Positions 345-28,213 of a DNA stretch of 64,000 nt are shown piece by piece. The stretch lies in assembly GCA_030913385.1 (NCBI GenBank), contig CP133159.1:2502584-2566583 (forward strand), written 5' to 3'. The notes below the pieces were generated by a model. The model saw only the letters and a program-made list of their open reading frames with translations. It was not told the DNA's origin and searched no databases. Each line of letters starts with the position of its first letter. The stretch's first letter is position 1. Source of the DNA: Cytophagaceae bacterium ABcell3 (GTDB lineage Bacteria; Bacteroidota; Bacteroidia; Cytophagales; Cytophagaceae). The position numbers and the translations under genes were made by a program.

Positions 345-427
345 AAACGTACTACCAAGTTTTTAGATATAAATATTTTATATATTATTGTTTATCTGCA
401 TATTGCATTGGATTTTTTTACTTGTTT

Positions 428-1003: not shown

Positions 1004-1014
1004 ATAAGGCAATC

Positions 1015-1136
1015 CCCCCCTTAATGCTCACTGTAGCTTGTAGCTACAGTACCGTATTGCCAAACAAAGACGCACTCCCCCTTAATGCTTACTGTAGTTT
1101 GCAGCTACAGTACTGTACTATCAAACAAAGACGTAC
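1015..1136. repeat. 61-bp tandem repeat, two copies, each with a REP palindrome
   Basis: Copy 1 (1015-1075) and copy 2 (1076-1136) align end to end with scattered substitutions. Each begins with CCCCCTTAATGC and includes a CTGTAG...CTACAG hairpin, at 1031-1049 and 1092-1110. The second copy leads into a full bipartite REP module. Confidence 0.8.
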
Positions 1137-1160
1137 TTGCAGAGGTAGCCTGTGACTACC
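1092..1160. repeat. Bipartite REP module 2 (69 bp)
   Basis: Palindrome 1 lies at 1092-1110 (one mismatch in the stem, CTGTAGT/GCTACAG). Palindrome 2, GGTAGCC-TGT-GACTACC, lies at 1144-1160. The spacing is 33 bp, as in the other three modules. Confidence 0.85.
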
Positions 1161-1272
1161 AAACGTACTATCTACATATTGTAATGTTTAATTAATACAA
1201 GTGTTCCGTAGCAGGAAGCTAAGGTTAGCAAAGATTCCTTCCTCCTGATAGAAAATTGAATAGACAGCACAA

Positions 1273-1369
1273 GCCGTTAAGTATGGAACATTTTTGCGGA
1301 AAGAAACAGGCAGGAGGTGTTCTTTATTGTTTGCGTATAGGTAAATGACAAAGCTGTCATAGTTAGCCC
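1273..1369. repeat. Direct repeat copy B flanking the REP transposase gene
   Basis: This is the second copy of the 97-bp repeat at 51-147, offset by 1222 bp, with about five substitutions. Both copies end at a TTAGCCC word and are followed by a REP-like palindrome. Confidence 0.85.
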
Positions 1370-1414
1370 GTGGCTGGAAGCTACGGATAGCAAAGGCAAT
1401 CCCCCCATAACCCC

Positions 1415-1894
1415 ATGAGCGTGCTCAAGTTCAAAAGTCCCGGCGCCAACCCACGGGAACCGCTCACGCAGGAAGAACCGGACAGCTCTTCAAAGCAGCG
1501 GAAAACCTGAAAGAGAAAGCGGTGCTGCACCTTTTTTACAGTTGCGGGCTAAGGCGCAAGGAAGGGGAGTCGCTGAACATCCAGGACGTGCACTTCAAGA
1601 AAAACATCCTTTATGTAAGGGAAGGGAAAGGGGCAAAACGGCGGGCCGTGCCAATGCCGGAAAAGGTGCGCAATGAACTGGAAAGCTATTACCTGAACGA
1701 GCGTGCCACGCTGGCCAACGTAAAGGACACAGAAGCCTTTGTCCTCAACAAGCTGGGGGGGGAGGATGAGCGGGAGCGGCCATAACAAGGTATTGAAACA
1801 GATAATCGAAAGGACAGATATCGCAAAAGAGACCAGCCTCCACCACCTACGGCACAGCATAGCCACGCACCTGCTGGACCCTTTTTTTGATTAA
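1415..1894 (+). pseudogene. Tyrosine recombinase (phage integrase family) remnant, frameshifted
   Basis: Three reading frames must be joined to read this gene. The first part (from ATG 1415) gives an LTQEE segment. A shift near 1471 leads into QLFKAAE...FYSCGLRRKE, which carries the first catalytic Arg. A second shift in the G-run near 1755 leads into LHHLRHSIATHLL, which carries the HxxR box. The N-terminal core-binding domain is missing. The frame stops at 1892-1894 before any catalytic Tyr segment. Base composition is clearly richer in G+C than the host genes, which suggests transfer from elsewhere. It lies against the left edge of the IS3 remnant, so later insertions may have cut its 3' end. 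It cannot encode an active recombinase. Confidence 0.85.
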
Positions 1895-1910
1895 TTAATG
1901 CCTGCCGCAG

Positions 1911-1964
1911 GGCTCCTCAAATCCTCCTATGATTTAGAAGAAAAATCATAGGAGGATTTCGAGG
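1911..1964. repeat. Inverted repeat resembling two facing IS termini
   Basis: AAATCCTCCTATGATTT (1919-1935) is followed after a few bases by AAATCATAGGAGGATTT (ending 1959). The right arm, starting TCATAGGAGG near 1946, resembles the TGATAGGACAG end found at the other side of the IS3 remnant (near 5850). The left arm could therefore be the end of a second, mostly lost, inverted copy. A plain transcription terminator is the alternative. Confidence 0.55.
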
Positions 1965-1976
1965 TTTATGCTTCTT

Positions 1977-2418
1977 TTACGCAGCACTTTTTCTATGAAT
2001 ATTATAAAATTCTTCAGGAGAAAGATATCCAAGAGAGGAATGTCTTCTGGTCCTGTTGTACCATATCTCAATGTATTCAAACAATCCCTTTTTTGCCTGC
2101 TTTATTGATTCATATTTCCGGTAACCAGTTTCAGATTTCAGGGTTTTGAAGAAGCTTTCAGCCACTGCATTGTCCCAGCAATTCCCTTTTCTGCTCATGC
2201 TCTGAGTAACATTTAGCTTACCAAGCTCATCCCTGAACTCTTTGCATGCATACTGCACGCCTCTGTCTGAATGAAAAACCAGCTCTTGAAAAACAGGTCT
2301 GTTTATCAGTGCCATCCTCCATGCAGGCACTACTGTTTCATATGCATGCATCGAAGTGGACATAGACCATCCTATTATTTTCCTATCATATAAGTCCATA
2401 ATCATGGTCAGGTATAAC
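1977..2418 (-). pseudogene. IS3 transposase OrfB, C-terminal part
   Basis: The segment carries the DRKIIGWS stretch, the second catalytic Asp in FHSDRGVQYA and the catalytic Glu in NAVAESFFKTLKSE, with the usual RRHSSLGYLSPEEF tail. All are typical of the IS3 rve integrase core. The first DDE Asp (in DITYI) is on the other side of the inserted IS66, at about 4730. The open frame continues past 2418 into IS66 end sequence by chance. It is therefore the 3' part of a gene broken by insertion. Confidence 0.9.
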
Positions 2419-2497
2419 GTATACCTACGGCCAAGTACATCTTTATTCCCAAAAAATAACGCCATAAGTTTGCATTACAAACTATAACAGCAAAATA

Positions 2498-2797
2498 ATG
2501 GCAACAAACACAAAAGTATCTGACCAGATGCGTGAGCTTTATCAGCTCTGGCAACAAAGCGGTATCAGTAAAAAAGAATTTAGCCTTCGGCAGAACATCA
2601 ATTATCAAAAATTCATCTATTGGTGCGGCAAATATAGAACAGAGGAGCCCGGTACCGGATTTGTCCCTCTGAAAGTAAGCAGCCCTGATGAAATTAACCC
2701 TGCGGCCGGCAACATGGAAGTTGTCTTTCCTTCCGGTGCCAAGGTCATATTCCACGGCATGGCAGATCCATCATTTGTTAAACAATTAGTCAGCTAG
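2498..2797 (+). CDS. tnpA: IS66 accessory protein TnpA
   Basis: The 99-aa product has the N-terminal helix-turn-helix-like region of IS66 TnpA proteins (MRELYQLWQQSGISKKEFSL) and a C-terminal IFHGMADPSFVKQLVS tail. In this family TnpA is needed together with TnpB and TnpC for transposition, but its exact role is not settled. Two nucleotides separate its stop from the tnpB start, which suggests coupled translation. Confidence 0.85.
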   Translation: MATNTKVSDQMRELYQLWQQSGISKKEFSLRQNINYQKFIYWCGKYRTEEPGTGFVPLKVSSPDEINPAAGNMEVVFPSGAKVIFHGMADPSFVKQLVS

Positions 2798-2799
2798 CC

Positions 2800-3159
2800 A
2801 TGCTTTCATTGTCTCACCAGTGCAGGTACTTTCTCTATTCGGGCAAAACCGACATGCGGAAAGGGTTTGACAGCCTATCAGGTATTGTAAGGAGCAAACT
2901 TAACGAAAACCCCATGAACGGGGACATTTTTATTTTCCTGAACCGAAACCGAAACCATGTCAAGCTCCTTTTATGGGAAGGCGACGGTTTCAGTATGTAT
3001 CACAAACGCCTTGAAAGAGGGACTTATGAAATACCTGTCCATTGCAAAAATGTGACCAAATCTGAAATATCCGCCTCGGTATTGCAACTGGTCTTACAAG
3101 GGATTTCCCTTGAGTCGGTCAGGCACCGCAAAAGATATAAAAGTCCTGGAAATCTTTAA
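2800..3159 (+). CDS. tnpB: IS66 family insertion sequence protein TnpB (Orf2)
   Basis: The 119-aa product matches the IS66 Orf2-like family throughout: CRYFLYSGKTDMRKGFDSLS near the N-terminus, then NPMNGDIFIFLNRNRNHVKL and LLWEGDGFSMYHKRLERGTY. Known IS66 elements need this small protein for transposition. The length is usual for the family. It follows tnpA directly and precedes tnpC by 56 bp. Confidence 0.93.
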   Translation: MLSLSHQCRYFLYSGKTDMRKGFDSLSGIVRSKLNENPMNGDIFIFLNRNRNHVKLLLWEGDGFSMYHKRLERGTYEIPVHCKNVTKSEISASVLQLVLQGISLESVRHRKRYKSPGNL

Positions 3160-3215
3160 ACTTATTCTTTTTTTCCTAATACCACCTACATAGGTATATT
3201 ATTTATCTTTGCAAC

Positions 3216-4670
3216 ATGCTTGCCGAAGGTATAGACTATAAAGAAAAATATGAGGAGGCGATGTCCGAGATCGCACTTTTGAAGTTTGAGCTCAAAGAGC
3301 TGAAGCGCCTCATATATGGCACCAAAAGCGAGCGTTTTGTGCCTTCGTCCGCACCGGAACAGTTAAACCTGGGACTTGGTGAAGAGCAGGCAACTGCCCC
3401 TGAAAAAGAGGAGGTCGTCAGGTTTAAGCGTGTCAAAAAAGAAACAGCCCGCAAGCACCCGGGCCGCCTCCCTATACCGGCACATGTACCAAGGGTGGAA
3501 GAGATTGTTGAGCCTGAAGAAGATACCTCAGGCATGAAAAAAATTGGGGAAGAGGTGACAGAGGTTCTTGAATATACCACCGGAAAGTTTCATGTGCGCA
3601 AAATTGTACGCCCGAAATACGCAAAACCTGAAGGGGAGGGTGTTGCCATTGGAGAATTGCCATACAGGGCGATAGAGAAAGGGATAGCCGGAGCAAGCCT
3701 TGTCGCTTTCCTTGTTGTCAGCAAGTATGTTGACCACCTTCCTTTATACCGCCAGATACAGATATTTAAGAGAGAAGGCCTTAATTTTCCTTCTTCCACA
3801 ATGTCAGACTGGGTAAAACAAGGGGTAAACAAGCTTAAAATCTTATACGAACTGCATAAAAAGAGGACACTGCAAGCCGGTTACCTGATGGCAGACGAGA
3901 CACCCATAAAAGTTCTCGACAAGGATAAAAAAAGTAAAATCCACCGGGGGTATTACTGGGTATATTATGACCCTGTCGGGAAACAGGTGCTGTTCGACTA
4001 TCGTCCCGGGCGCGGGAGCGAAGGGCCATCAGATATACTGAAGGGTTTTCAGGGATACCTGCAATGTGACGGGTATAACGTATATGATATGTTTGCCAAC
4101 ATCAAGGGCATAACATTGTTCCATTGTATGGCACATGCCAGAAGGATGTTTGAGAAAGCATTGGACAATGACAAAGAAAATGCAGAACATGCCTTGAAAG
4201 AATTTCAGAAGTTATATGATATTGAGCGTAAAGCAAGGGAGGCCGGGATGTCTTTTGAAGAAAGAAAGGAATCAAGGCTTGATGCAAAAACAACATTGGA
4301 CGACCTGGAAGAATGGATGAAAAACCTGTACCCTAATATTGCCCCTAGGAGTCCTATTGGAAAGGCGCTCGAATACTCCTTGAGCAGATGGGAAAGGCTC
4401 TCCATATATCTTGAGGATGGCAAGCTGGAGATAGATAACAATCTGGTGGAAAACTCAATAAGGCCAGTAGCCATAGGAAGGAAAAATTATCTGTTTGCCG
4501 GTTCACATGATGCTGCCCAGAGAGCCGCCCAAATATACTCGCTTGTGGCAAGCTGCAAAATCAACGGTGTAAACCCATTGGAATGGATGAAAGATGTTCT
4601 GGAAAGAATAGACAATCACCCGGTAAACAGGCTGGAAGAACTGCTACCCGGGAAGTGGGTAAAATTATAA
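3216..4670 (+). CDS. tnpC: IS66 family transposase TnpC
   Basis: The 484-aa DDE transposase begins with a coiled-coil leader (about residues 1-40, KYEEAMSEIALLKFELKEL). The catalytic core shows ADETPIKVLD, then QCDGYNVYD, and near the C-terminus DNNLVENSIRPVAIGRKN with the catalytic Glu, followed by the FAGS...ARA-type tail. The Cys residues of the usual IS66 zinc finger are absent. The C-terminal SLVASCKINGVNPLEWMKDVL segment is typical. A TATCTTTG box at 3204-3211 lies almost against the ATG. It resembles a Bacteroidota -7 element, but no -33 partner is clear. The frame is intact. Confidence 0.95.
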   Translation: MLAEGIDYKEKYEEAMSEIALLKFELKELKRLIYGTKSERFVPSSAPEQLNLGLGEEQATAPEKEEVVRFKRVKKETARKHPGRLPIPAHVPRVEEIVEPEEDTSGMKKIGEEVTEVLEYTTGKFHVRKIVRPKYAKPEGEGVAIGELPYRAIEKGIAGASLVAFLVVSKYVDHLPLYRQIQIFKREGLNFPSSTMSDWVKQGVNKLKILYELHKKRTLQAGYLMADETPIKVLDKDKKSKIHRGYYWVYYDPVGKQVLFDYRPGRGSEGPSDILKGFQGYLQCDGYNVYDMFANIKGITLFHCMAHARRMFEKALDNDKENAEHALKEFQKLYDIERKAREAGMSFEERKESRLDAKTTLDDLEEWMKNLYPNIAPRSPIGKALEYSLSRWERLSIYLEDGKLEIDNNLVENSIRPVAIGRKNYLFAGSHDAAQRAAQIYSLVASCKINGVNPLEWMKDVLERIDNHPVNRLEELLPGKWVKL

Positions 4671-4699
4671 AATCAACATGCACTTGCCCGAAGGCTTAC

Positions 4700-4755
4700 G
4701 GTATAACCATGCCTCATTTGTCCGGATATAAGTTATGTCTGATACTTGCTGATGC
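4700..4755 (-). pseudogene. IS3 transposase OrfB, short middle fragment
   Basis: Reading the minus strand gives QVSDITYIRTNEAWLY, the region around the first catalytic Asp of an IS3 transposase. It joins in frame to the C-terminal part at 2410 once the IS66 and one target copy are removed. Its upstream edge coincides with a CTGATGC word (4749-4755) that also occurs where the N-terminal OrfB fragment breaks off (5168-5174). Confidence 0.8.
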
Positions 4756-5050
4756 CAAACTTGGTTGTCAGTTATTTCTAAATAATTGCCAGTCATGCCA
4801 TAGTTTAGGTAGTGATTCTGGATATATAAGTTTAGAGGATACTCCAAAAGAAGCTATAGTTTTAATTATTCCGAACATTAATGATTCTAATTACCACAAG
4901 CCTACCTATTTTGACTTAACAGATTGTGAAAAAGCTCACATAACAGAATATATTCTTTCTTATTATAATGAACCTTTTGATGAACCTATTGTAGAGGTTG
5001 AGAAAAGTTGTTCTCAATTAGGCTTCTTCCCCGAAAGTCCGAGCAAGTGA
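4756..5050 (+). pseudogene. Cytochrome c domain fragment captured inside the IS3 remnant
   Basis: The plus-strand frame reads KLGCQLFLNNCQSCHSLG, a c-type haem site with CQSCH at 4787-4801. It continues through a region ending ...LTDCEKAHITEYILSYYNEP, which resembles the C-terminal helix of class I cytochromes c, and stops at 5048-5050. There is no signal peptide and no start of its own; the open frame runs in from IS66 and IS3 sequence. A possible Met ligand is not obvious. I read it as the 3' part of a cytochrome gene that lost its beginning when IS sequences rearranged here. Confidence 0.6.
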
Positions 5051-5167
5051 TATAACCGCTGTATCCCCCCCCTCTGGTCTAAGATTAGCGATAGCGTATC
5101 TTAGACCCAAAATATTGCAAGCTTGTAGCTTGCGTAATGTGAGTTGGGGAAAAAAGAAAATGAGAAA

Positions 5168-5490
5168 CTGATGCTAAATCCATGGTTTGAATCAGTTGTG
5201 CAGACTTTAAATTTTTTACTTACAACACTCCTGATTCCGTGGTCTTTCATGATCCTGGCAACCCTTGGCCTGGATACTGCAAAACCCTTTTTTCTAAGAT
5301 CTAATGTAATTCTAGGACTTCCATAGGTACCATTGCTTAACTCATGCACTGTTTTGATTTCCTTTAGCAATATCGCTCTTTGTTGAGCCAGTTTGAGTTG
5401 TTTCTCCTTCTTCCACTCATAAAAGCTGTTCCTGGCAACATTAAATGTCCTACACATCTTTTCAACAGCATACTCTTTTCTATGATCCAT
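5168..5490 (-). pseudogene. IS3 transposase OrfB, N-terminal part
   Basis: The reading begins MDHRKEYAVEKMCRTFNVAR and continues with the HTH_21-like region NGTYGSPRITLDLRKKGF and KKFKVCTTDSNH, typical of IS150-like OrfB. After TTDSNHGFSIS the frame enters unrelated sequence. A normal protein would go on for about 20 residues to the DITYI motif. The start overlaps the orfA stop in a TAATG arrangement. Confidence 0.88.
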
Positions 5491-5807
5491 TATGAATTGG
5501 TATATTTGCTGTCTCCCCTGGAAAAGATGCTTACCGCCTTTTTTAGGATTTCCCTTTCAAGCTCAGATTCCTTTAAGGCTTTCCTCAAGGCATGAATTTC
5601 TTTTTGTTCTTCTGAAAGGTTCTGTTTCCCATTTCCTGGAAAACTGGCAGCGCCATTCGTCTTCATTTCACGTGACCATCTCCTTACTAAATCAGGACCA
5701 ATGCCTAATTCTTTCCCAACAGCGGTACTGGTCTTCCCGCTTAAATGCAGCTCTACAGCCATTGTTTTAAATTCGTGGTCATATGACCTTCTTTCTCTTT
5801 TACTCAT
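5490..5807 (-). CDS. IS3 family transposase OrfA
   Basis: The 105-aa protein has an N-terminal helix-turn-helix of the transposase_8 type (YDHEFKTMAVELHLSGKTST...GIGPDLVRRW) and a C-terminal leucine-zipper-like helix (EIHALRKALKESELEREILKKA). In IS3 elements OrfA binds the terminal repeats and is also made as an OrfAB fusion by frameshifting. This copy is intact, but its partner OrfB is broken, so at most it could act on related IS copies elsewhere. Confidence 0.92.
   Translation of the reverse strand: MSKRERRSYDHEFKTMAVELHLSGKTSTAVGKELGIGPDLVRRWSREMKTNGAASFPGNGKQNLSEEQKEIHALRKALKESELEREILKKAVSIFSRGDSKYTNS
5538..5544 (-). promoter_or_regulatory. Programmed -1 frameshift site (A AAA AAG) in the IS3 element
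   Basis: On the minus strand the orfA codons ...CTA AAA AAG GCG form the classical IS3 slippery heptamer. Slipping back one base leads into the frame of orfB without a stop before its ATG, which would give an OrfAB fusion. This is established for IS3-family elements. Use at this locus is inferred. Confidence 0.65.
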
Positions 5808-5865
5808 CGTTCCAAATTTAAGAAAAAGAGCTTAACTTACTGTCCTATCAAATATATACATTCCA

Positions 5866-5921
5866 ATCTTCCTGTTCTTTGGGGAGCCATTCAAAGGCTT
5901 CTTCCACTAGAGCTTTAAAAA
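5866..5921 (-). pseudogene. Short remnant of a paralogue of the 495-aa gene at 6605-8092
   Basis: Bases 5866-5908 match 6692-6734, the 3' part of the next minus-strand gene, at all but one position. The translation EEAFEWLPKEQED is identical in both, and an in-frame upstream stretch (TFFKALV) differs. The remnant lies beside the right end of the IS3 element (about 5850). This suggests that a second copy of the gene once stood here and was destroyed around the insertion. Confidence 0.7.
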
Positions 5922-6202
5922 AAGTTCGACTCAGTGCGTCGGGAATTAAGCTGGACCCATTACCGGTCACTTTTAAAGGTAGACTTAAGTTTATATGCTC
6001 ACTGTAGCTTGCAGCTACAGCACCGTACTATCCAATAAAGCCGTATTGCCAAAGGTAGCTTGCAGCTACCAGAACGTACTGCCAAATAACCCGCTAATAC
6101 ACAATATTATTATAGCGTCTTGCAACAATACCACCCTATGAGGTAAACCACATATGAAAATAAATCGTTAACTTTACTGATGACCAAATGCGGCACTCGA
6201 AC
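5922..6202. other. Gene-free stretch with REP module 3
   Basis: Apart from the palindromes at 6002-6070, I see no coding sequence between the paralogue remnant and the antitoxin gene. Confidence 0.6.
6002..6070. repeat. Bipartite REP module 3 (69 bp)
   Basis: Palindrome 1, CTGTAGC-TTGCA-GCTACAG (6002-6020), and palindrome 2, GGTAGCT-TGC-AGCTACC (6054-6070), stand exactly 33 bp apart. The spacer (CGTACTATCCAATAAAG core) is nearly identical to that of the module at 13712. Confidence 0.88.
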
Positions 6203-6415
6203 ATGAAACCAGAAATTAAATACAAACTAATAGAAAAGCTTATCCAGACCGAGGACGATGCATTGTTGAGCCAGGTACAGGAAATATTGGAAGACAGCAG
6301 TTCCAAAAGCGAAGACCTGAAACAAGAACTCGACAAAAGAATGGAAAAATACCGTCGTGGGGAAAGTAGCCTATATACTTGGGAGGAAGTAAAAAAACAT
6401 GTCAAAAAGAAATGA
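6203..6415 (+). CDS. Putative antitoxin (addiction-module component type)
   Basis: The 70-aa acidic and helical protein begins MKPEIKYKLIEKLIQTEDDALLSQ and ends YTWEEVKKHVKKK. This is the usual build of small RelB-like or addiction-module antitoxins, where a WEEV motif near the C-terminus is common. The ATG at 6203 is preferred over 6188 because the conserved part starts there. Its stop overlaps the start of the toxin frame (ATGA at 6412-6415), a classical toxin-antitoxin coupling. Confidence 0.7.
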   Translation: MKPEIKYKLIEKLIQTEDDALLSQVQEILEDSSSKSEDLKQELDKRMEKYRRGESSLYTWEEVKKHVKKK

Positions 6416-6612
6416 GTTACAGTCTATTTTTTACAGACGATGCCAGAGCTGATATCAAGGAAGGTTATGAGTGGTATGAAGGACAGGGAGAAGAGCTAGG
6501 CGACGAATTTTTAGAGAGCTTAAACGCTACTTTGAAGAAAGTCGAAGAGCATCTGGCTGGCGATCTGCGCTATTCTTTTTTGTCTGAATCGGGATTTTTA
6601 GGTATCAATTAA
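6412..6612 (+). pseudogene. RelE/ParE-type toxin, C-terminally truncated
   Basis: The reading MSYSLFFTDDARADIKEGYE...WYEGQGEELGDEFLESLNATL is the N-terminal half of a ParE/RelE-fold toxin. The fold normally needs about 95 residues, and its C-terminal strands carry the active residues. Here the frame turns into unrelated sequence after about residue 50 and stops at 66 aa. The break lies close to the 3' end of the convergent gene at 6605, which suggests a rearrangement. The toxin is probably dead, leaving an orphan antitoxin. Confidence 0.7.
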
Positions 6613-8092
6613 CCAATTCCAACAGTACCGGATAATATTCTTGTTTCATGAGCTTTGCCTTAAGCCAAGTATAAAAAGCCATGGCCTGAATATCTTCCTG
6701 TTCCTTGGGGAGCCATTCAAAGGCTTCTTCCACTTTAGCATGAATATCTGTAGATAGTGGATTTTGTATATAGTTTTTTACCAAAGTTAGGAAAACAAAC
6801 CCTCTTTTGTAAATAGGATTATCAGCCAAAGCTGCAAAACTTCGTTCTACAGAGCGTATCCTGTTTTCGCAGATGTCCAATTTGTTGAGCTCGTAGTAAA
6901 GAATTACCTCCATCAGGTTCTTTTTAAATACCCATTCAACCCCCATTTGCTTTTTATACCAGTTGTCGGAATGGTCAAAGTGGTAGAACAGGTTTAAGGT
7001 TTTTTTGTAATCCCCACGAATGAAGTGGTACATGCCAAGGTTTATAATGGTGTTGTTTGTTTCATTAGCCTGAAAACCATAATCCATCACCAGCATATCT
7101 GATAAAATTTGAATAGCTTCTTCCAGATGCCCAAGAAACATCTTGTTGGCAGCTTTCATCTGTATGACCCTGCCCCAGAAACGCTTTTTCAATGATTTTG
7201 GGCCGGCGAGCAGGGCTTGCTCCAGCATTATAAGGTGGTCAAGTGATTGGGGAAACTTCTTGTTTCTATACAATGTATGGGCCACCATGTAAAGCATTTC
7301 TATCTGATAGGAGCCATAGCTTTGGGGCGCTTCTTTTTTAAACAGGCTTTTGTAACTGGATGTCAAAAAGGGCTCAAAATTGTGAAAGGCTTTGGTCGCA
7401 ATGGTGCCGGAACGAATTATTTGCAAGAGTTTCAGGAATAGCCTAGGTTGCTGGAGGGTTTCTTGGCTAATTTGGTATTTACTTAATATTTTATTGATGA
7501 GGTACTGAAACTTTACTTCTTTCCCTGATAGTCTGTAGCGCTCCAGCTCTCTCACAATAACACTTTTTACTATAGAAAAGCGCTCATCTACATTCAGTAA
7601 TACCCGATTGCGCTCATACTTCTCAATAATCTCCTCCAGCGACACCTTTTGCTGCAAGTGTGCATAATTTAGTTCTAGCAAATAAATATCGTTGAGAATA
7701 TGAAAAGCGTCTTGTTGCAAAGCCATTTCTTCTGCCGACAGCAGGTATTTCCATCCCAGTTCATGGAGGTGTTTGTCCAACAAAAATTTGGCGGTATTCA
7801 GATTGGCTTGTATTTGCGCCGTTTCATTTTCCTGCTTTGACTGTGACTTTAGCAATATAAAGTCTGAGAGATGTCTAAACAAACGCTTTCTGATGGTGTG
7901 ATAGGCATTGCTGTTCTTAGTGTTCAGGTTTGCAATAAGTTCTTCCGTGTCCCACTTCTTTTTTTCTTTGAGAAGCTTAAACAGCAATAAGTCCTTTCTG
8001 TCTTTTTTAAATCTGGACCTTTGAATGAACCATGAAAATTCTTCGCAGTCACTTGCGTCTAATGAGTGAATTATTTCTTGCAGGTTATCCAT
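6605..8092 (-). CDS. Conserved hypothetical helical-repeat protein (495 aa)
   Basis: I do not recognise a named family. The protein has no signal peptide and is almost wholly helical. It starts MDNLQEIIHSLDASDCEEF and contains an early basic region (RSRFKKDRKDLLLFKLLKEK). Many leucine-rich helical pairs follow, resembling degenerate TPR units (for example ILNDIYLLELNYAHLQQ and TIINLGMYHFIRGDYKKTLN). A scaffold role in the cytoplasm is plausible, but nothing shows a function. A short fragment of a paralogue lies at 5866-5921. An ISAon1-family element sits only 12 bp upstream of the ATG, separating the gene from its original 5' region at 9531 and beyond. Expression may therefore be lost or driven from the IS. 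Confidence 0.75.
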   Translation of the reverse strand: MDNLQEIIHSLDASDCEEFSWFIQRSRFKKDRKDLLLFKLLKEKKKWDTEELIANLNTKNSNAYHTIRKRLFRHLSDFILLKSQSKQENETAQIQANLNTAKFLLDKHLHELGWKYLLSAEEMALQQDAFHILNDIYLLELNYAHLQQKVSLEEIIEKYERNRVLLNVDERFSIVKSVIVRELERYRLSGKEVKFQYLINKILSKYQISQETLQQPRLFLKLLQIIRSGTIATKAFHNFEPFLTSSYKSLFKKEAPQSYGSYQIEMLYMVAHTLYRNKKFPQSLDHLIMLEQALLAGPKSLKKRFWGRVIQMKAANKMFLGHLEEAIQILSDMLVMDYGFQANETNNTIINLGMYHFIRGDYKKTLNLFYHFDHSDNWYKKQMGVEWVFKKNLMEVILYYELNKLDICENRIRSVERSFAALADNPIYKRGFVFLTLVKNYIQNPLSTDIHAKVEEAFEWLPKEQEDIQAMAFYTWLKAKLMKQEYYPVLLELVN

Positions 8093-8159
8093 AGGGTAAA
8101 TTGTGGCTCACACGTAAAAGTTGGGGAGTTTTGGTTTGATTTGTTAATTTTAAGGCAAG

Positions 8160-8546
8160 ATGAAAGAAAATATTATTGCCCCTTTTTTGCCGGAAGGCAT
8201 ACTAGATTTTTTTGAAATAGAAGCTGTAATAGAGCTATGTGACCTGAACAGCAAAAGATCCTTTTATAAAATCAACCTCATTGAGCAGAACCGGCTATTA
8301 GGAAAACATAATCCTGAAGAGTACGAGTCTAAAGGTTTTTATGAACCTAAAATTGTGCAAGATTTCCCTATAAGGGGAAAAGCCGTTTATCTTGAATTTA
8401 AGCGACGAAGGTGGAGGCATAAAACATGCAAGAACAAAATAGTTTACAATGACTATTCATTTGTAGCTGAAGGCTCTAAAATCACTCAAGAGCTTTCAGA
8501 TTTTTTAAAAGGTACAGGTCGAGACCCGCGAAGATACCATTGGTAA
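8160..8546 (+). CDS. ISAon1 family transposase, N-terminal region protein
   Basis: The 128-aa product begins MKENIIAPFLPEGILDFFEI and includes YEPKIVQDFPIRGKAVYLEF and RRRWRHKTCKN. This resembles the separate DNA-binding N-terminal ORF of ISAon1-like elements, which is related to the zinc-binding N-terminus of ISL3 transposases. It ends in a frame different from that of the catalytic ORF. The downstream frame is open from 8509, just after a TTTTTTAAAA run, so frameshifting could join the two. Confidence 0.85.
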   Translation: MKENIIAPFLPEGILDFFEIEAVIELCDLNSKRSFYKINLIEQNRLLGKHNPEEYESKGFYEPKIVQDFPIRGKAVYLEFKRRRWRHKTCKNKIVYNDYSFVAEGSKITQELSDFLKGTGRDPRRYHW

Positions 8547-8577
8547 CATTGGCAGCTATTATGAGGTCAAAGGGGAT

Positions 8578-9498
8578 TTGTTGAGGAGGCACTATAAGAA
8601 GAAAAGCAGTGGGTTTAAGCAGTGGGAACAAAAAGAGCATGCAGAAGACTATTTGGTCTTTCCGGACAATATCGGAGAGCATCTCAGTATAGACGAAGTT
8701 GCACTGTCAAAAGGAGAGTTGTACACTTTTATTACCAATAAAAACGGGAGAGGCAAAAGAGGCTCTTTGGTAGCTTCTGTAAAAGGCACATTGTCGGCAA
8801 ATATCATACAAGTTCTGGAGAAAATCCCTCTGGAACAAAGGAATAAAGTAAAGGAAGTAACCCTTGACATGGCAAAAAACATGGAGTCATCCGCAAGAAC
8901 ATGTTTCCCCATGGCAAATTTGGTTACAGACCGCTTTCATGTAGTAAGGCTGGCCCTGGAGGCTCTACAACATATAAGGGTCAATCAAAGATGGGTTGAA
9001 CTGGATATGGAAAACAAGGCTATCGAAGCTGCCAAAAAGAATGGCGTTAGGTATAAAGCACCCTTATTGCCCAATGGGGACACCCCAAAGCAACTTTTGG
9101 CCCGCTGCAGGTATGTCTTTGCCAAAAAGAAAGCTGATTGGACTCAAAGCCAAGAGCAGAGAGCCAACATAGCTTTTGAAAATTATCCAGACCTCAAAAA
9201 AGCTTATGACCATGTTCTTGAGTTTAGGCTAATATATGAAAGCAACACAAAAATTTCCGCTGAAAAAAAGTTTAATGAATGGATCAATAAAACTCATGAG
9301 ATGGAAATTAAAGAATTTTTAACGGTAGCAAATACAGTAAGCAACCATATGAGCAATATTCTAAACTTCTTTGACAATAGATCTACCAATGCAAATGCGG
9401 AATCTTTTAATTCAAAAATAAAGCTCTTCAGGGCAAACTTAAGAGGCGTTGTAGATACCAGGTTTTTCTTGTTCAGGCTCTCTAAGCTTTTTGCTTAA
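8578..9498 (+). CDS. ISAon1 family transposase, catalytic region
   Basis: The 306-aa product has a DDE layout of the ISL3 type: the first Asp in LSIDEVALSKGELYT, the second in EVTLDMAKNM with TDRFHVVRLA after it, and the Glu in NANAESFNSKIK near the C-terminus. The TTG at 8578 gives the start used here. The same frame is open upstream to 8509, so a fusion with the first ORF by a +1 shift is equally possible. No internal stop is seen. Confidence 0.92.
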   Translation: MLRRHYKKKSSGFKQWEQKEHAEDYLVFPDNIGEHLSIDEVALSKGELYTFITNKNGRGKRGSLVASVKGTLSANIIQVLEKIPLEQRNKVKEVTLDMAKNMESSARTCFPMANLVTDRFHVVRLALEALQHIRVNQRWVELDMENKAIEAAKKNGVRYKAPLLPNGDTPKQLLARCRYVFAKKKADWTQSQEQRANIAFENYPDLKKAYDHVLEFRLIYESNTKISAEKKFNEWINKTHEMEIKEFLTVANTVSNHMSNILNFFDNRSTNANAESFNSKIKLFRANLRGVVDTRFFLFRLSKLFA

Positions 9499-22189: not shown

Positions 22190-22630
22190 TTAGTTGTTTT
22201 TAGCGCCCTCTTTTATCCAAGTTAGAATTTTGTCCACATCGCTTTCGCTAAGCGGGTTGGCAGGAGGCATTCTTGGGTTTGGATGTTTTATTTCCCTGTA
22301 TAAAGGACTATCCTCTGGACTGCTAGTGTTTACATAACCTTTGGTAGTGAGTATTTCATGTGCACAGCAAGACTCTAGGTTTAGCTGGTGAAATTCACCA
22401 TGGCATGTTACACAGTTTTGGTTGAAAATGGGCTGAATATCATCTTTAAAACTAAATGTATAAGTTTCTGTTTCTTCGTCTGGGTTTTCTTCATCTGAAG
22501 TCTCTTCTTTTTCGTCATCACCATTTTCAGCTATGGGTTCGTCTTCTGGTACAACCAAAGGTCCTTTGTCTTTAGCGCAAGCTAAAAGCAATGCCAAAAT
22601 TAAAAGAGGTATTATGTTCTTTAGTTTCAT
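22190..22630 (-). CDS. c-type cytochrome lipoprotein
   Basis: The 146-aa protein has a lipobox (LLLACAKD, Cys18). A very acidic linker of Glu and Asp covers about residues 28-55. The haem domain starts FKDDIQPIFNQNCVTCHGEF. A later NPRMPPANPLSESDVDKIL segment supplies the probable Met ligand. It is probably anchored in the outer membrane and moves electrons near the surface. One base separates its start codon from the stop of the upstream barrel gene. Confidence 0.88.
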   Translation of the reverse strand: MKLKNIIPLLILALLLACAKDKGPLVVPEDEPIAENGDDEKEETSDEENPDEETETYTFSFKDDIQPIFNQNCVTCHGEFHQLNLESCCAHEILTTKGYVNTSSPEDSPLYREIKHPNPRMPPANPLSESDVDKILTWIKEGAKNN

Positions 22631-22631
22631 A

Positions 22632-23531
22632 TTACTTTTTGTTTCTTTTCCAAAAAACTCTTTTTAAGTTAAATCCTAGCACAAAGTTTCCGTTTAGATA
22701 ATCTGCTTGTTCTGTAGTGAGCAGTTGTTGCTGTAATATATGTTGGCTAGATGTTAAGAATATTTGAAATGTATGTCCAGCCGTTGCTATTTCATATCCT
22801 ATAGATAGTGGATACCTATGATTTGAAAGGTTTTCATTTATAATATATGAGTATTCAAAAATGATAGAAGAAGTTAAACCTGTCTTTATAGATCCTCCAA
22901 TTGGAACGGCCATTACATAGTTGTCTCTTTCTGGCGAAACTAGGTTTCTGTAAACCAATGTAGGCGCCACTTGTAAAGATAACTTATTGCCAAATTTTCG
23001 TGATATTATTAATTGACTATTATAAGCTAATCTGTGCACAAAATGGTATTCGAAAGGCGTATGTCCATCTTCGAAATAAGCATTATCAGGTACTGATGGG
23101 AAGTTGTCAGTTCGTATTGCCGCATTGAAATAAGCAGCAATTGACACAGGTGAACTTTCGTCTTCGGTTTGTTGTGTTACTATATATTTTCCTTCAAAAT
23201 CATATATTTTATTAAACCTTGTTCTTCCCACTCCAATATATAAACGATCTGAAATTGGTATAGCTAAACCTAATCTAATGTTCGATGGTAAATCCATACC
23301 TAAAAACTCCGTTAGTATTTCCCTTCCGGGGCTTACTACACCAAACCTGTGTTTAATATTAAATTCAACAGCATTACTTTGTATTGATTCTGTGGTCTGT
23401 GTATTTATGAGTTCATTACTTCTAAAGTTCTTAATAACTGCCGGTTTTTCACTGTCTTGTCCATAACATATAGTTGTATAAAAACTAATAATTATGAAGA
23501 CTGAATATTTTAAGTATTTTTCTTTTTTCAT
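22632..23531 (-). CDS. DUF5777-type outer-membrane beta-barrel protein
   Basis: The 299-aa protein has a signal peptide ending TICYGQ. Alternating strands are visible, such as NAVEFNIKHRFGVVSPG, LYIGVGRTRFNKIYDF and NSQLIISRKFGNKLSLQVAP. The build matches DUF5777 barrels, which often neighbour c-type cytochromes and YceI-like proteins in Bacteroidota. The next gene is such a cytochrome, so the pair may form a surface electron-transfer or porin unit. Two CRP/FNR-like boxes lie 143 and 176 bp upstream. Confidence 0.75.
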   Translation of the reverse strand: MKKEKYLKYSVFIIISFYTTICYGQDSEKPAVIKNFRSNELINTQTTESIQSNAVEFNIKHRFGVVSPGREILTEFLGMDLPSNIRLGLAIPISDRLYIGVGRTRFNKIYDFEGKYIVTQQTEDESSPVSIAAYFNAAIRTDNFPSVPDNAYFEDGHTPFEYHFVHRLAYNSQLIISRKFGNKLSLQVAPTLVYRNLVSPERDNYVMAVPIGGSIKTGLTSSIIFEYSYIINENLSNHRYPLSIGYEIATAGHTFQIFLTSSQHILQQQLLTTEQADYLNGNFVLGFNLKRVFWKRNKK

Positions 23532-24192: not shown

Positions 24193-24358
24193 AAAAAAAT
24201 GTTGCATATTCTGAAGTAAAAAAATACTGCTTGGGCATAATATAAATAAGTGGGTGGTACGTTAAGTCGCCCCACTTATTTTTTATTAAAGCATTTTATA
24301 TAGGCTTCCATGTTTACCAAGTTTTAGGAGCCTCAAATGCTTGTTTATGGCCACCAGC

Positions 24359-24766
24359 CTAGGCGTATGAAGCTTCAAGCATGGTGGATGACAAAATGCT
24401 GTATACTTCAGCCCATGCGGCCTCTGTTTCTTCGGTAAAGCTTTCTCCGAGCCCTTCTTTTAATGTAGCCAGTAAGGCCGCGCCTACTGTATTGTAGTGG
24501 TCTGGTTTAACGCCATAACCTACATGTCTTCTGCCCAAGTCTTGTACCGCAGGAACTAATGCATCTAGATCGTCAAGGCCTTTAACAGCGGTTTTTATCA
24601 TAAGCATTAGTTTTTTGCCCTGTTCTTTCATATCTCCCTTAAATAATGGTTTCAGGGAAGGGTCTAAGGTGAATAGTTTCTTATAAAAAATTTCTGCTGC
24701 TATTTCTGAAATGGGTTCAACTTTTTCAAAAGATTTTTGCACTAGGATTTTTTGTCTTTCAGTCAT
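24359..24766 (-). CDS. Single-domain globin, flavohaemoglobin-type active site
   Basis: The 135-aa protein aligns along its whole length with the globin domain of flavohaemoglobins and Vitreoscilla haemoglobin. From family knowledge I place Tyr28 (B10), Phe42 (CD1), Gln49 (E7), the proximal His81 in GRRHVGYGVKPDHY, Tyr91 (G5) and Glu115 (H23). These are the residues used for NO dioxygenation in Hmp. No reductase domain is attached, but an FAD/2Fe-2S reductase is encoded two genes upstream in the same operon. It is the last gene, 22 bp after the multihaem cytochrome. NO or O2 chemistry is likely; which one is an inference. Confidence 0.92.
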   Translation of the reverse strand: MTERQKILVQKSFEKVEPISEIAAEIFYKKLFTLDPSLKPLFKGDMKEQGKKLMLMIKTAVKGLDDLDALVPAVQDLGRRHVGYGVKPDHYNTVGAALLATLKEGLGESFTEETEAAWAEVYSILSSTMLEASYA

Positions 24767-24788
24767 GATAATTGGTATTTATAGGTTG

Positions 24789-25502
24789 TTAATAAGATGC
24801 TTCTTTATATTGATTGTCTTCTGTTTTTTCTACTTTGTATTTTTTGCTGTCGCCATATGGGTCAGGTCCACCTAAGAAATAGTCTTTTATTCTTGCAGTT
24901 TCTATGGTATCCCTCAATTTTTCGGGTGCTTCCATCAGGTGATTTCCATGGAAGTCGTGGCATTGCAGGCAAGAAGTCCACATAGCGTTTTGAATTAGTT
25001 CCACATGAGGCACGTCTAAAGGGTCGTTTTTCATATTCAAGTCACTGTGACAGTTAATGCAATATGAAGTCTCGTTTATAGTAAGCCTTACCCCTTTATG
25101 TTCTAGGTGGCAAGACTCGCACTTTTCAGGGCCAATTGCTAGCCGTGCTTCTTCGAATCGTGGCTCTTCAAACCTATGTACAGGGTGTCTGTCATTTGGG
25201 CGGTCATGACAGGAAATGCACTTTGCATTGTCTACATCCTGCATGCCAAAGTCAGCCATCGTTTTTCGTTGGCCTGTTAGGTATAAGATGTTTGCATGTA
25301 TTTGCTGAAAAGGGTTCCCTTTTGCTTTTGTATGGCATGCCTGACATTCCAGCTCTTCATGACCTGTGTTCATAGGCCCTAAAGAAAGCATATGTTCATT
25401 GGATGGAATGGTAAGGATTGCCCATGCCGTTACACCTAAAAATAGCCCTACGGACATACCTAACACCTGTCTTTTTCTTTTCCTGCTTATGTTAAGTTTC
25501 AT
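24789..25502 (-). CDS. Membrane-anchored pentahaem cytochrome c
   Basis: The 237-aa protein has an N-terminal membrane anchor after a basic stretch (VLGMSVGLFLGVTAWAIL, about residues 13-30). Five c-haem sites follow: CQACH, CISCH, CESCH, CINCH and CLQCH. Several additional His residues (for example DRHPVHRF and DFHGNH) can be the second ligands. The layout resembles NapC/NrfH-like or cytochrome c3-type electron carriers without being a clear member of either. The start codon is one base after the stop of the reductase gene, so tight coupling is expected. It probably carries electrons between the membrane and periplasmic partners. Confidence 0.88.
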   Translation of the reverse strand: MKLNISRKRKRQVLGMSVGLFLGVTAWAILTIPSNEHMLSLGPMNTGHEELECQACHTKAKGNPFQQIHANILYLTGQRKTMADFGMQDVDNAKCISCHDRPNDRHPVHRFEEPRFEEARLAIGPEKCESCHLEHKGVRLTINETSYCINCHSDLNMKNDPLDVPHVELIQNAMWTSCLQCHDFHGNHLMEAPEKLRDTIETARIKDYFLGGPDPYGDSKKYKVEKTEDNQYKEASY

Positions 25503-25503
25503 G

Positions 25504-26535
25504 CTAACTTTTCATTTCTATCTTTACATTGTCATCTTCTGGGAAGCACACGCAAGGGAGTATATATCCTGCTTCTTTTTCTTCTGCTGAGAGGATGTTT
25601 TTTTCCTCGTTTTTTATTTTTCCAGAGATTAACTTGCTTTTACAAGAGCCACATATTCCACTTAGACAAGAGTAAGTCGCTTTAATATCTTCATCTAGTA
25701 CAGCATCTAATATGCTTTTATTGGGTGTTACAGGTACCTTGTGTTCTTTTCCATTTAGAACAAAAGCCACTTGGTGCTCTGAGGCTGCCCCGCATGCTTT
25801 TTTTACAGGCGCTGTAAAAGATTCTATGTGGATTTTTTCTTCAGGTATGTCTAAATCGTACAAGCTGTTTTGAACCACTTCCATCATCCCTGTTGGGCCG
25901 CAGATATAGTAGGCTCTTTGATCGGCGCTTTCAGGTAGCATATTGTTGATCCAGCCAGCTATTTTGTCTTTGTTTATCCTACCTGTTTCTCCTGTCCAAT
26001 TAGGTGAAGGTTTTTCTAAAATATGGACTAGGTTAAACCTGTCAGGAAATTGTTCTTCTAGTTGTTTGAGTTGTCTTTTGAATATGATCGACTGTTCGTT
26101 TAGGTTTGCGTAGTATAATGAAACATTGCTTTGAGGCTCAAAATACAATATGCTTTTGGTTATGGACATGAGTGGTGTAATGCCGCTACCGCCTCCAAAG
26201 AGGACAAAGTGTCTCCGGACACCTTTGGCCGCTTCAAACACAAAGTTTCCCATAGGTTTCATTACCTTTAGCGTGTCTCCTGGCTTTAGTTCCTCAAACA
26301 GTCTGTTCGAAACTTTTCCATCTTTAACCCTTTTTACTGTTACCGTTACTGTCTTGTCTATCTTAGGTGTGCTGTTGATAGAATATGCCCTTCTTACTTC
26401 TTTGCCGTCCACATCAAGGATCAAGGTCAAGAATTGGCCTGGTTTATATTTTATCTTGTTGAAAAATGGTTGTTTAAAATGGATGCTTATAGAGTCAGAT
26501 GTTTCTTTTTCTACATTCAATACTTTAAGTTTCAT
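25504..26535 (-). CDS. FAD/2Fe-2S oxidoreductase (ferredoxin-NADP reductase type, PaaE/Hcr-like)
   Basis: The 343-aa cytoplasmic protein has three domains. An FAD-binding barrel carries RRAYSINS (about residues 48-55). An NAD(P)-binding domain has GGGSGITPLM and CGPTGMMEVV. A C-terminal plant-type ferredoxin domain has CLSGICGSC and a later Cys in ILPCVCFP. Enzymes of this build pass electrons from NAD(P)H through FAD and 2Fe-2S to a partner such as a hybrid-cluster protein, an oxygenase or a haem protein. Here the candidates in the same operon are the globin (as a split flavohaemoglobin) or the membrane protein upstream. Confidence 0.93.
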   Translation of the reverse strand: MKLKVLNVEKETSDSISIHFKQPFFNKIKYKPGQFLTLILDVDGKEVRRAYSINSTPKIDKTVTVTVKRVKDGKVSNRLFEELKPGDTLKVMKPMGNFVFEAAKGVRRHFVLFGGGSGITPLMSITKSILYFEPQSNVSLYYANLNEQSIIFKRQLKQLEEQFPDRFNLVHILEKPSPNWTGETGRINKDKIAGWINNMLPESADQRAYYICGPTGMMEVVQNSLYDLDIPEEKIHIESFTAPVKKACGAASEHQVAFVLNGKEHKVPVTPNKSILDAVLDEDIKATYSCLSGICGSCKSKLISGKIKNEEKNILSAEEKEAGYILPCVCFPEDDNVKIEMKS

Positions 26536-26559
26536 AGCTCTATTTATTTAGATTATTTA

Positions 26560-27039
26560 TTATTCATAATAGAATACCATCCAGACATGGTATATCATAA
26601 GCATGGAAATCAGAAGAGAGAAAGCCACATGGGCTATCATCCACCCCTGTAAGTACCAGTTTGCTTTGGTTTTTATTACCTCTGGATTAAGTAAGCCTAA
26701 TGCATAGTTGGAAAAGAAGGTGATGCTAAGAAAAAACAGGTACGCATAGCCTAAATACATGGTATGTATATAGAATACTAGTGGCGCTATAGCCCCCATC
26801 CACTTATGAATGGTTGTAAACAACTGGTTGTTCTTTTCTAGCATTTTATTGAGCCTGACAGGAGTCAGAAACCATTGGGAGAGTATGTATATCCCAAGGG
26901 CAAGTCCCGTCCAGCGGTTAAACATTTCACCTGTTTGCAGCGACTCCAAGTATTCCCATCGGATATCCAGTAGGTGCTGGCCTAGGTAAAGCGTTAGCAG
27001 GATCCACCCAACTATGATATATCCCTTGTTGTTGCTCAT
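26560..27039 (-). CDS. Four-helix membrane protein with conserved His (cytochrome b-like)
   Basis: The 159-aa protein has four hydrophobic helices. His residues occur at or near helices in HKWMGAIAPLVFYIHTMY, AHVAFSLLISML and MIYHVW, a pattern consistent with haem b in small ferric-reductase or cytochrome b-like proteins. I do not recognise a named family. Its start codon overlaps the stop of the upstream lipoprotein gene (TAATG). It could link the cytoplasmic reductase to periplasmic cytochromes; this is an inference from context. Confidence 0.75.
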   Translation of the reverse strand: MSNNKGYIIVGWILLTLYLGQHLLDIRWEYLESLQTGEMFNRWTGLALGIYILSQWFLTPVRLNKMLEKNNQLFTTIHKWMGAIAPLVFYIHTMYLGYAYLFFLSITFFSNYALGLLNPEVIKTKANWYLQGWMIAHVAFSLLISMLMIYHVWMVFYYE

Positions 27040-27863
27040 TAGTACTTTAAGATAGAATTTAGACTTGTATGAGATGTTATCTTTGATATGCTGTCAACAA
27101 AAACAGCCGTTTCCGGTAAGGAATATCCGTGCGCTGGCCATTCAGCTCCTATAATCGGTTTTTCCTTATCTTTAAAAGTATTGGTCTTGTCAAGGTATGA
27201 CTGGTAGGTTTTTGATGCTCCCATTCGATAAACCCTTAGCAGAGCTTTCATTTCATCAACTGTAACCGAATCTTTAGGGAAAGTCCAAGTGGTAGCTCCC
27301 ATGATATCTCCCAGCTTCCAATCGTCTTTTGGTGACTCGGGATGTTCATTATGGCAAGTTACGCAACCTTGTACGACGGCAAAGTCTGGAAACATAGCAG
27401 TATGTTTGCCCGCTTTTTCGTCAAAGAAAAATTTTGGTTCTTTGTCCTCTTTAATTTTCTCAAATAACTCTTTTTGTTTTCCTGTAAATTCATTTGCTTG
27501 GTTCACAGGAAAATCGCTTCCTAAAAATAATCCTAAGGGAATATCTGTTTTTTGAATTTCCATAGAGGTTGCTCTAAGGAATAAGGCTGGCAATGGGCCT
27601 GCTTCTATGTGGTTCTTTTGCCAGTCCTCGTCAAAAGCAAGGCCTTTAAGTTTGCCAGCATCTACAATGGCTTTTGTGTATAATGTACGTGCAGCATCGT
27701 TCTCTTGGGCCAGCATGGTAAAGGCCTCTTCTATTGGGTATTTTGTACCAGAACTAGTTTCTTCGGGCAAAGGGTCACCACATGAAACTACAACAAAGGT
27801 CAATAATGTTAAACATAAAATCGATCCTTTAGGGAAAGCCATAAACTTTGGTAATGCACGCAT
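27039..27863 (-). CDS. Haem-binding lipoprotein, Tll0287-like (DUF3365) domain
   Basis: The 274-aa protein has a lipoprotein signal (LLTFVVVSCGD) and a helical domain. That domain contains the c-haem site CVTCHNEHPESPKDDWKLGD and the downstream MGATTWTFP segment, typical of Tll0287-like proteins. In known proteins this domain has a PAS-like fold that binds c-haem and is proposed to sense redox state or small gases. It is the first gene of the five-gene operon, preceding the membrane protein with a one-base overlap. It may be the sensor or the entry point of the chain. Confidence 0.8.
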   Translation of the reverse strand: MRALPKFMAFPKGSILCLTLLTFVVVSCGDPLPEETSSGTKYPIEEAFTMLAQENDAARTLYTKAIVDAGKLKGLAFDEDWQKNHIEAGPLPALFLRATSMEIQKTDIPLGLFLGSDFPVNQANEFTGKQKELFEKIKEDKEPKFFFDEKAGKHTAMFPDFAVVQGCVTCHNEHPESPKDDWKLGDIMGATTWTFPKDSVTVDEMKALLRVYRMGASKTYQSYLDKTNTFKDKEKPIIGAEWPAHGYSLPETAVFVDSISKITSHTSLNSILKY

Positions 27864-28213
27864 GGTAATAATTTTTTTGGTGAATTTTATAAGTATTAAC
27901 TATGACATAAACATAAGTATAAATACTTAAATAGTCAATACGTATATTAGGTAAAAATACCTGTGCGAGAATTTTCCTTGGATATTTATATTTAATGGTT
28001 TAAAAATATTATTTATGTCTTATCTATTGTAAGATTCTGGTTTTGATGAATATGTTTTACTATAGTAGTACTTTTGAACTGAGATTAGAATTGTTGTTGT
28101 GTACGGGAAAATACTTAGTGTGTGAGCTTGCCTTTTATTGCTTTTGCTGGTAGAATGTAATAAAGGTATTGTACGGAATGATGGGGACAGATTAAAGAAT
28201 GTCTACCATATTT
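27864..28213. other. Upstream region of the globin operon
   Basis: The stretch is A+T rich and presumably holds the operon promoter. An imperfect palindrome TAAGTAT-AA-ATACTTA stands at 27914-27929, about 50 bp before the first ATG, and could be an operator. No FNR-type box like those at 19541 and 23675 was seen here. Confidence 0.5.
27914..27929. promoter_or_regulatory. Possible operator of the globin operon
   Basis: TAAGTAT and ATACTTA are inverted arms around two A bases. The position fits a promoter-proximal operator. The regulator is unknown. Confidence 0.35.

Follow-up and report, generated by a model that had tools for sequence, protein, structure and literature searches.

What purpose a run of five haem and flavin protein genes might serve, when one of them encodes a globin that stands alone, is the question raised by a locus of Cytophagaceae bacterium ABcell3 (assembly GCA_030913385.1, contig CP133159.1, positions 2,502,584 to 2,566,583; this whole stretch of 64,000 nucleotides is referred to as the window). 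An earlier note described an operon of five minus-strand genes with gaps of -1, 24, 1 and 22 bp, encoding a Tll0287-like c-haem lipoprotein, a small membrane protein, a reductase with flavin adenine dinucleotide (FAD) and 2Fe-2S domains, a five-haem cytochrome c and a globin. It read them as a split flavohaemoglobin coupled to a trans-membrane cytochrome chain, able to detoxify nitric oxide (NO) or to sense or use O2 or NO at the envelope. The coordinates and gaps were borne out by the open reading frames and the Tll0287-like, reductase, cytochrome and globin families by Pfam matches; no published description of the five-gene set was found in a search of the open-access literature. The five genes very likely form one module of the Bacteroidota nitrate-assimilation regulon, because the cassette is conserved, shares an operator with nitrate genes and is nearly confined to genomes that encode the nitrate reductase NasC. 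Judged from these genomes, the context that the earlier note missed is nitrate assimilation. Its link to NO becomes plausible through nitrate metabolism, and its proposal of O2 use or sensing at the envelope found no support in the analysis.

When 84,980 species genomes were scanned with an alignment of the cytochrome, 133 relatives came up, 80 of which underlie the locus counts given here; all are from Bacteroidota where the record names a group. All five families are clustered in about 75 of the 80 loci. The earlier note would have had its reading refuted by a gene order not conserved outside this genome; this refutation failed, as the set is kept in several families and orders. Most often the genes run globin, Tll0287-like protein, membrane b protein, reductase and pentahaem cytochrome c, of which the order in the window is a rotation with the globin last. 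Within the order Cytophagales, the membrane gene is present in 8 of 148 genomes (that of the window included), with other cassette genes beside it. A scan of 395 genomes with the single membrane-protein sequence found only the window's genome; it was too insensitive, since a profile found the gene in 22 of 249 Flavobacteriaceae. A ccmF-type cytochrome c maturation gene lies between the reductase and cytochrome genes at four loci (L018, L019, L021 and L024), and hemA precedes the globin at seven. Rearrangement has mostly left the five genes together, which speaks for joint action. Unrelated haem genes could have been kept together by chance in a few lineages, and the counts are uncorrected for phylogeny, but hitch-hiking of this kind is extremely improbable for five families that occur together across orders, through rotation, fusion and ccmF insertion, with a conserved operator.

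The neighbours of the cassette point to nitrate. Nitrate genes (NrtA, NrtB, NasC, NarK or nitrite reductase) lie within about 10 kb in 60 of the 80 loci. In 31 loci nrtA is the next gene downstream of the cytochrome gene, and in 42 the globin is immediately preceded by a Crp/Fnr-type gene. The neighbouring genes encode parts of a nitrate ABC transporter, NarK, a Crp/Fnr-type regulator, a NarX-like kinase and a NasC-type nitrate reductase, and the NasC of these bacteria is fused to a NirB-like FAD/NADH and BFD domain. Among 249 sampled Flavobacteriaceae, 60 have NasC and 22 have the membrane gene. By counts and p values that ignore relatedness, NasC is found in all 22 of the latter versus 38 of the 227 genomes without the membrane gene (p = 8e-16), and NrtA in 22 of 22 cassette-bearing versus 27 of 38 other NasC genomes. 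By the same kind of count, NasC is present in 7 of the 8 Cytophagales carriers, five of which belong to one genus, versus 45 of 140 others (p = 0.003); the eighth carrier, without a NasC match, is an 84% complete assembly. Full-length or near-full-length NasC was found in 35 of the 37 genomes behind cassette loci. The window's genome encodes NasC, NarK, NarXL-like proteins, NirB, NrtABCD-type proteins and a Nap-type cluster, with NasC about 220 kb from the five genes and not in the same operon. The Nap-type cluster (L122, G000:C1:2598500-2618000, G000 being the window's genome) encodes a Tat-type NapA-like enzyme, two tetrahaem cytochromes, an iron-sulphur protein and NrfD, and is read as a periplasmic nitrate reductase cluster. 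It adjoins genes for a quinol NO reductase and ScdA/RIC, and a second molybdoenzyme is encoded in the same region (L122:16011-18227). NrfD, iron-sulphur and tetrahaem genes like these adjoin the cassette in some Flavobacteriaceae.

The upstream regions of the cassette and of the nitrate genes have a palindrome in common, TAAGTAT-NN-ATACTTA. Its core, TAAGT-N6-ACTTA, was found in 44 of 67 regions upstream of the globin, where none was expected, and at 135 sites in 1.54 Mb of related loci, where 5 were expected. These sites lie upstream of the globin (50), nrtA (35), crp/fnr (13), nasC (10), narK (8), the Tll0287-like gene (6) and others. The operator precedes the cassette in 54 of the 80 loci (66 with a relaxed pattern), whereas 10 of 575 control genes have it. 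No upstream enrichment was seen for canonical Fnr, Crp or other palindromes. The site in the window matches the element exactly, is its only match at up to one mismatch and precedes the Tll0287-like gene, which is the first gene there, rather than the globin. This genome has an identical 16-mer about 0.95 Mb away, 102 bp ahead of nrtA, and variants precede narX, narK and nirB, which ties the isolated copy in the window to the nitrate regulon. In the window's genome the operator or its TACGTA variant was noted before narX-like, narK, nrtA and nirB genes (L123:2728, L123:7853, L124:10092 and L125:9893), and a genome-wide nitrate regulon could be drawn from such sites. Because of the Crp/Fnr-type gene just upstream in 42 loci, a factor of this type is preferred as the best, unproven candidate for the regulator that binds the operator; the coincidence is not strict, such a gene being present in 32 of the 54 operator-bearing loci. 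A NarL 7-2-7 site is disfavoured, since the heptamers of NarL sites have the opposite orientation to those of the palindrome.

The same association could mean that the cassette is an electron chain that supplies nitrate or nitrite reduction, the enzyme being NasC, NirB or the periplasmic nitrate reductase; the globin would then be an accessory that protects or that scavenges O2. Such a role would fit the strict association with NasC, the operator common to the cassette, nrtA and nasC, the requirement of Bradyrhizobium for Flp, the proposed NasC donor, in growth on nitrate (PMC4724949), and the occurrence of a Nap-type enzyme in the window's genome and of Nap-like genes beside the cassette in about 7-10 loci. 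It is nevertheless unlikely, given that NasC is here fused to its own NADH-FAD-BFD reductase, that NirB also has its own, that the Nap cluster has its own iron-sulphur, NrfD and NapB-like proteins, and that 38 of the 60 sampled NasC genomes manage without the cassette. With a NirB-like NADH reductase domain built into NasC, there is probably no need for the cassette reductase to supply it with electrons, which would leave that reductase free to serve the globin and a membrane haem wire.

Table. Features of the five-gene operon and its flanks, in window positions.
Feature	Position	Strand	Basis or remarks
Predicted palindromic operator TAAGTATAAATACTTA, core TAAGT-N6-ACTTA	27914..27929	.	50 bp before first gene
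Tll0287-like (sCache_heme) c-haem lipoprotein, 274 aa	27039..27863	-	Pfam PF11845; one CXXCH; lipobox Cys28
Small membrane protein, predicted bis-b-haem trans-membrane electron carrier	26560..27039	-	His78/His92, His137/His151
NAD(P)H reductase with FAD, NAD and plant-type 2Fe-2S domains, PaaE/Hcr-like	25504..26535	-	PF00970, PF00175, PF00111
Membrane-anchored pentahaem cytochrome c, 237 aa	24789..25502	-	Five CXXCH
Single-domain globin, 135 aa	24359..24766	-	PF00042
Inverted repeat AATAAGTGGG ... CCCACTTATT and T-rich stretch, terminator candidate	24240..24284	-	Read from sequence

The globin has the conserved domain PF00042 (E-value: 5e-21). Its nearest solved chains are those of Hell's Gate globin I (3s1i and 3ubc; E-value: 7e-31), the best flavohaemoglobin scoring 8e-15, and by sequence it is a single-domain globin nearest to bacterial single-domain globins. 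Tyr28, Phe42, Gln49, His81 and Tyr91, which the earlier note had assigned to the haem pocket, are near-invariant (70-71 of 71 family sequences) and correspond to Tyr B10, Phe CD1, Gln E7, His F8 and Tyr G5 of flavohaemoglobins. The same cannot be said of Glu115, which it had taken for H23; residue 115, Glu in the window, is Lys in 64 of the 71 sequences. We take the H23 place to be near residue 133, by spacing from a conserved Trp in the numbering of E. coli Hmp. Because this residue is Ala or Ser in the family and residue 131 is variable, the alignment indicates that the H23 Glu of flavohaemoglobins is absent. No fusion of globin and reductase was found among the cassette loci, and in the window the two are separate genes. 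Membership of the flavohaemoglobins was rejected for want of both the fusion and the H23 Glu. The stand-alone globin and separate FAD/2Fe-2S reductase of the earlier note are supported, but its label "flavohaemoglobin-type" claims too much, given the missing H23 Glu and the fact that Hell's Gate globins, not flavohaemoglobins, are the nearest solved ones.

A short tail with the look of a membrane-seeking segment is found on globins of three lineages; it is MxFxKSLFGKK at the N terminus in Cytophagales, KPWWKFW at the C terminus in the double globins of Aquimarina and KKWYEFWK in Saprospiraceae-type loci. The globin of the window has none. The double globins hold two cassette-type domains in one protein of 291-296 aa that ends in KPWWK[FV]W. 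They are encoded on the opposite strand, downstream of a cassette without a globin of its own (L052:11910-12788, L033:14387-15271, L042:6941-7822 and four other loci, mostly Aquimarina). Among 16 NasC-positive Flavobacteriaceae without the cassette, 15 gave no globin match and one gave a long match (a 455-aa frame); by this count the globin and the cassette go together. In genomes of the genus Sporocytophaga, both with and without the cassette, single-domain globins that are less closely related to those of the cassette occur in tandem (G103:C61:183968-185433).

The reductase comprises FAD_binding_6, NAD_binding_1 and Fer2 domains and is most similar among NCBIfam models to PaaE (266 bits) and Hcr (193 bits), both under the cut-off. 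At L040 and L096, reductase and pentahaem cytochrome form a single protein of 585-587 aa, in which the reductase is followed by the anchor helix and five haems; the next genes encode the Tll0287-like protein, membrane protein and globin. These fusions suggest that the reductase serves the membrane chain, which would make the haem wire at least one of its partners.

The membrane protein had been described as four-helix and His-rich. A four-helix bundle and four conserved His are indeed present, but five long helices are predicted (model pLDDT 91) and His22 is not conserved. His78, His92, His137 and His151 are invariant in 70-71 sequences and form two H-x13-H pairs. In this model these pairs sit on two helices with one other between them, so the two should run parallel, as in cytochrome b, NADPH oxidase (NOX) and b561. 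Structural look-alikes of the model include superoxide oxidase CybB (VIA Z of 9.2), cytochrome b6 (9.0), bacterial NOX (8.0) and cytochrome b561, at modest Z values such as helical bundles commonly reach by chance. What mainly speaks for a di-haem b protein is therefore that the four His are invariant and are spaced to suit two haems across the bundle. Foldseek gave no significant match for the model, and Ferric_reduct (PF01794) scored 14.3 bits versus a cut-off of 28. The Lys/Arg-rich loops suggest that His78 and His137 face the cytoplasm and His92 and His151 the periplasm.

The pentahaem cytochrome is of the Cytochrom_c3 type in Pfam (Cytochrom_c3_2, 35.2 bits versus a cut-off of 25), with exactly five CXXCH motifs and an Arg/Lys-rich N terminus followed by a single anchor helix. 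It stays below the Pfam threshold for the NapC/NirT quinol dehydrogenase cytochromes (Cytochrom_NNT, 13 bits versus a cut-off of 24.1). The five CXXCH and six further His (48, 106, 135, 166, 185 and 188) are invariant in 81 of 81 sequences. Since six extra His suffice for bis-His ligation of all haems, the protein is more likely a carrier than an enzyme. The trans-membrane cytochrome chain of the earlier note thus gains support from the two invariant H-x13-H pairs and from the reductase-cytochrome fusions. No convincing sequence relatives among solved structures were found for the membrane protein, the cytochrome or the Tll0287-like protein. A trans-membrane NAD(P)H oxidase, or a metal or quinone reductase, that passes electrons to external O2, Fe(III) or quinone, with redox balancing as the link to nitrate, would share the split NOX or ferric-reductase layout, the multihaem c carrier and the di-haem b look-alikes, which include superoxide oxidase and bacterial NOX. 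It would leave the co-regulated globin and the tracking of nitrate genes without explanation, and is very unlikely.

The Tll0287-like protein has the Pfam domain (PF11845, E-value: 2.3e-9), the CXXCH motif and the Cache fold of the Tll0287/sCache_heme proteins. The best solved match to its AlphaFold model (pLDDT 86) is Tll0287 itself (5b82; Foldseek prob 1.00; VIA Z 10.2 versus 6.8 for the next). No Cys is conserved in the family beyond those of the lipobox and CXXCH, and the axial Cys ligand of the Tll0287 type is, by alignment, absent from the cassette proteins. A Cys-less sCache_heme relative binds NO tightly and a Cys-bearing stand-alone one does not, and relatives with a fused signalling domain act as NO sensors (PMC12889525). 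The cassette might accordingly be pictured as a sensor module that tunes the Crp/Fnr-type nitrate regulon: the periplasmic Tll0287-like protein would, with the pentahaem cytochrome, signal the presence of NO or nitrite, or the redox state, across the membrane, while the globin buffers NO; the frequent Crp/Fnr-type gene upstream would suit this. However, no cassette protein has a signalling domain, an FAD reductase and five c haems are far more electron-transfer machinery than a sensor needs, and stand-alone sCache_heme proteins are proposed to be redox-active. A sensor module is quite unlikely.

On balance, we favour NO protection during nitrate assimilation as the module's main role, by the following proposed mechanism. 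NasC, together with the periplasmic nitrate reductase in this genome, would release some NO from nitrite. The cytoplasmic globin would remove it, most likely by converting NO and O2 to nitrate, and would regain its reduced state from NAD(P)H by way of the FAD/2Fe-2S reductase, as with Bjgb and Flp in Bradyrhizobium. Electrons probably also flow from the reductase into the membrane haem wire: they would pass to the two b haems of the membrane protein (His78-His137 inner, His92-His151 outer), then to the anchored cytochrome with its five c haems and finally to the Tll0287-like haem lipoprotein. The Cys-less haem of the latter would be the likeliest periplasmic site to react with or sense NO or a related oxidant.

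Several points weigh against this reading, besides the missing H23 Glu and the neglect of relatedness in the co-occurrence counts. We infer both the NO chemistry and the electron path. NO removal by the cassette would be redundant in the window's genome, which encodes a complete flavohaemoglobin (L002) as well as a quinol NO reductase and ScdA/RIC. The 38 NasC genomes without the cassette imply that it is not essential for nitrate assimilation, and in the window nitrate genes do not adjoin it. At L011/L045 (Sporocytophaga) the cytochrome, Tll0287-like and membrane genes occur without the reductase and globin, and the genome has only a 44% identical reductase elsewhere. Stand-alone sCache_heme proteins have been assigned redox rather than sensor roles, the one tested having a Cys ligand (PMC12889525).

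A more elaborate form of the NO-protection model is tentative and more doubtful than not. In it, a split NADPH-oxidase-like wire and a globin would share one reductase and form a two-sided NO machine at the inner membrane, switched by nitrate. The wire would run from NAD(P)H through FAD/2Fe-2S, two b haems and five c haems to the Cys-less sCache haem lipoprotein. On the periplasmic side it would reduce NO or nitrite-derived species, and on the cytoplasmic side the globin, membrane-bound in some lineages, would remove NO.

Downstream of the globin, the inverted repeat and T-rich stretch listed in the table may mark the end of transcription of the operon and, tentatively, probably do so. The terminator scan did not list the repeat in this form, as its loop exceeds the allowed length. 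A match to the operator pattern at 24263, within this hairpin, was judged to be a terminator stem and not an operator. Further downstream on the same strand (22190-23531) are genes for a c-type cytochrome lipoprotein and a DUF5777 outer-membrane barrel. They were rejected as cassette members, not being found with the cassette elsewhere, and the cytochrome is unrelated to the small cytochrome that follows the Aquimarina cassette. The first 10 kb of the window (422-9498) hold several transposase-like open reading frames of different families.

Through this analysis the nitrate-assimilation regulon of marine and soil Bacteroidota gains a globin and a trans-membrane haem wire, and it becomes testable how these bacteria cope with NO from assimilation. 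Three protein families that had no assigned role, namely the small di-haem b protein, the pentahaem cytochrome and the Cys-less sCache_heme lipoprotein, acquire a functional context. The analysis also predicts a nitrate-regulon operator for Bacteroidota, none being described in the open-access literature searched.

The closest known system is the narK-bjgb-flp-nasC operon of Bradyrhizobium, for which genetic work supports a defence against NasC-derived NO by an FAD reductase together with a single-domain haemoglobin (PMC4724949). Both systems combine a single-domain globin with a separate FAD-NAD(P)H reductase, under regulation tied to NarK, an ABC nitrate transporter and NasC; for the cassette, a link of the Bjgb-Flp type is suggested by the shared operator, gene neighbourhood and NasC co-occurrence. 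Unlike that operon as described, the cassette adds the trans-membrane b protein and the pentahaem and Tll0287-like cytochromes. Flp is the proposed NasC donor in Bradyrhizobium, whereas the NasC of Bacteroidota has its own reductase domain, and the control elements differ. With Hmp, the globin shares Tyr B10, Gln E7, His F8 and Tyr G5 and an FAD/NAD reductase at hand, but it differs in being one of two separate proteins, with an extra 2Fe-2S domain in the reductase and no H23 Glu, in a genome that holds a separate complete Hmp. Hell's Gate globin I of Methylacidiphilum infernorum is likewise single-domain and is the nearest solved globin, with no partner cassette described in PMC11203436. The Tll0287-like protein resembles Tll0287 and other sCache_heme proteins in its CXXCH within a Cache fold and in being stand-alone and periplasmic (PMC12889525), but is a lipoprotein without the axial Cys, has an extra C-terminal segment and belongs to an electron-transfer operon. 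NADPH oxidases, ferric reductases, b561 and superoxide oxidase also have two H-x13-H pairs on two bundle helices and an NAD(P)H-FAD reductase on the cytoplasmic side; in the cassette, by contrast, reductase and b protein are separate, Ferric_reduct falls below its cut-off and the acceptor is a pentahaem c. The best reading of these comparisons is that the cassette follows the Bjgb-Flp logic of Bradyrhizobium, with an added haem wire that would lead from NAD(P)H to the periplasm.

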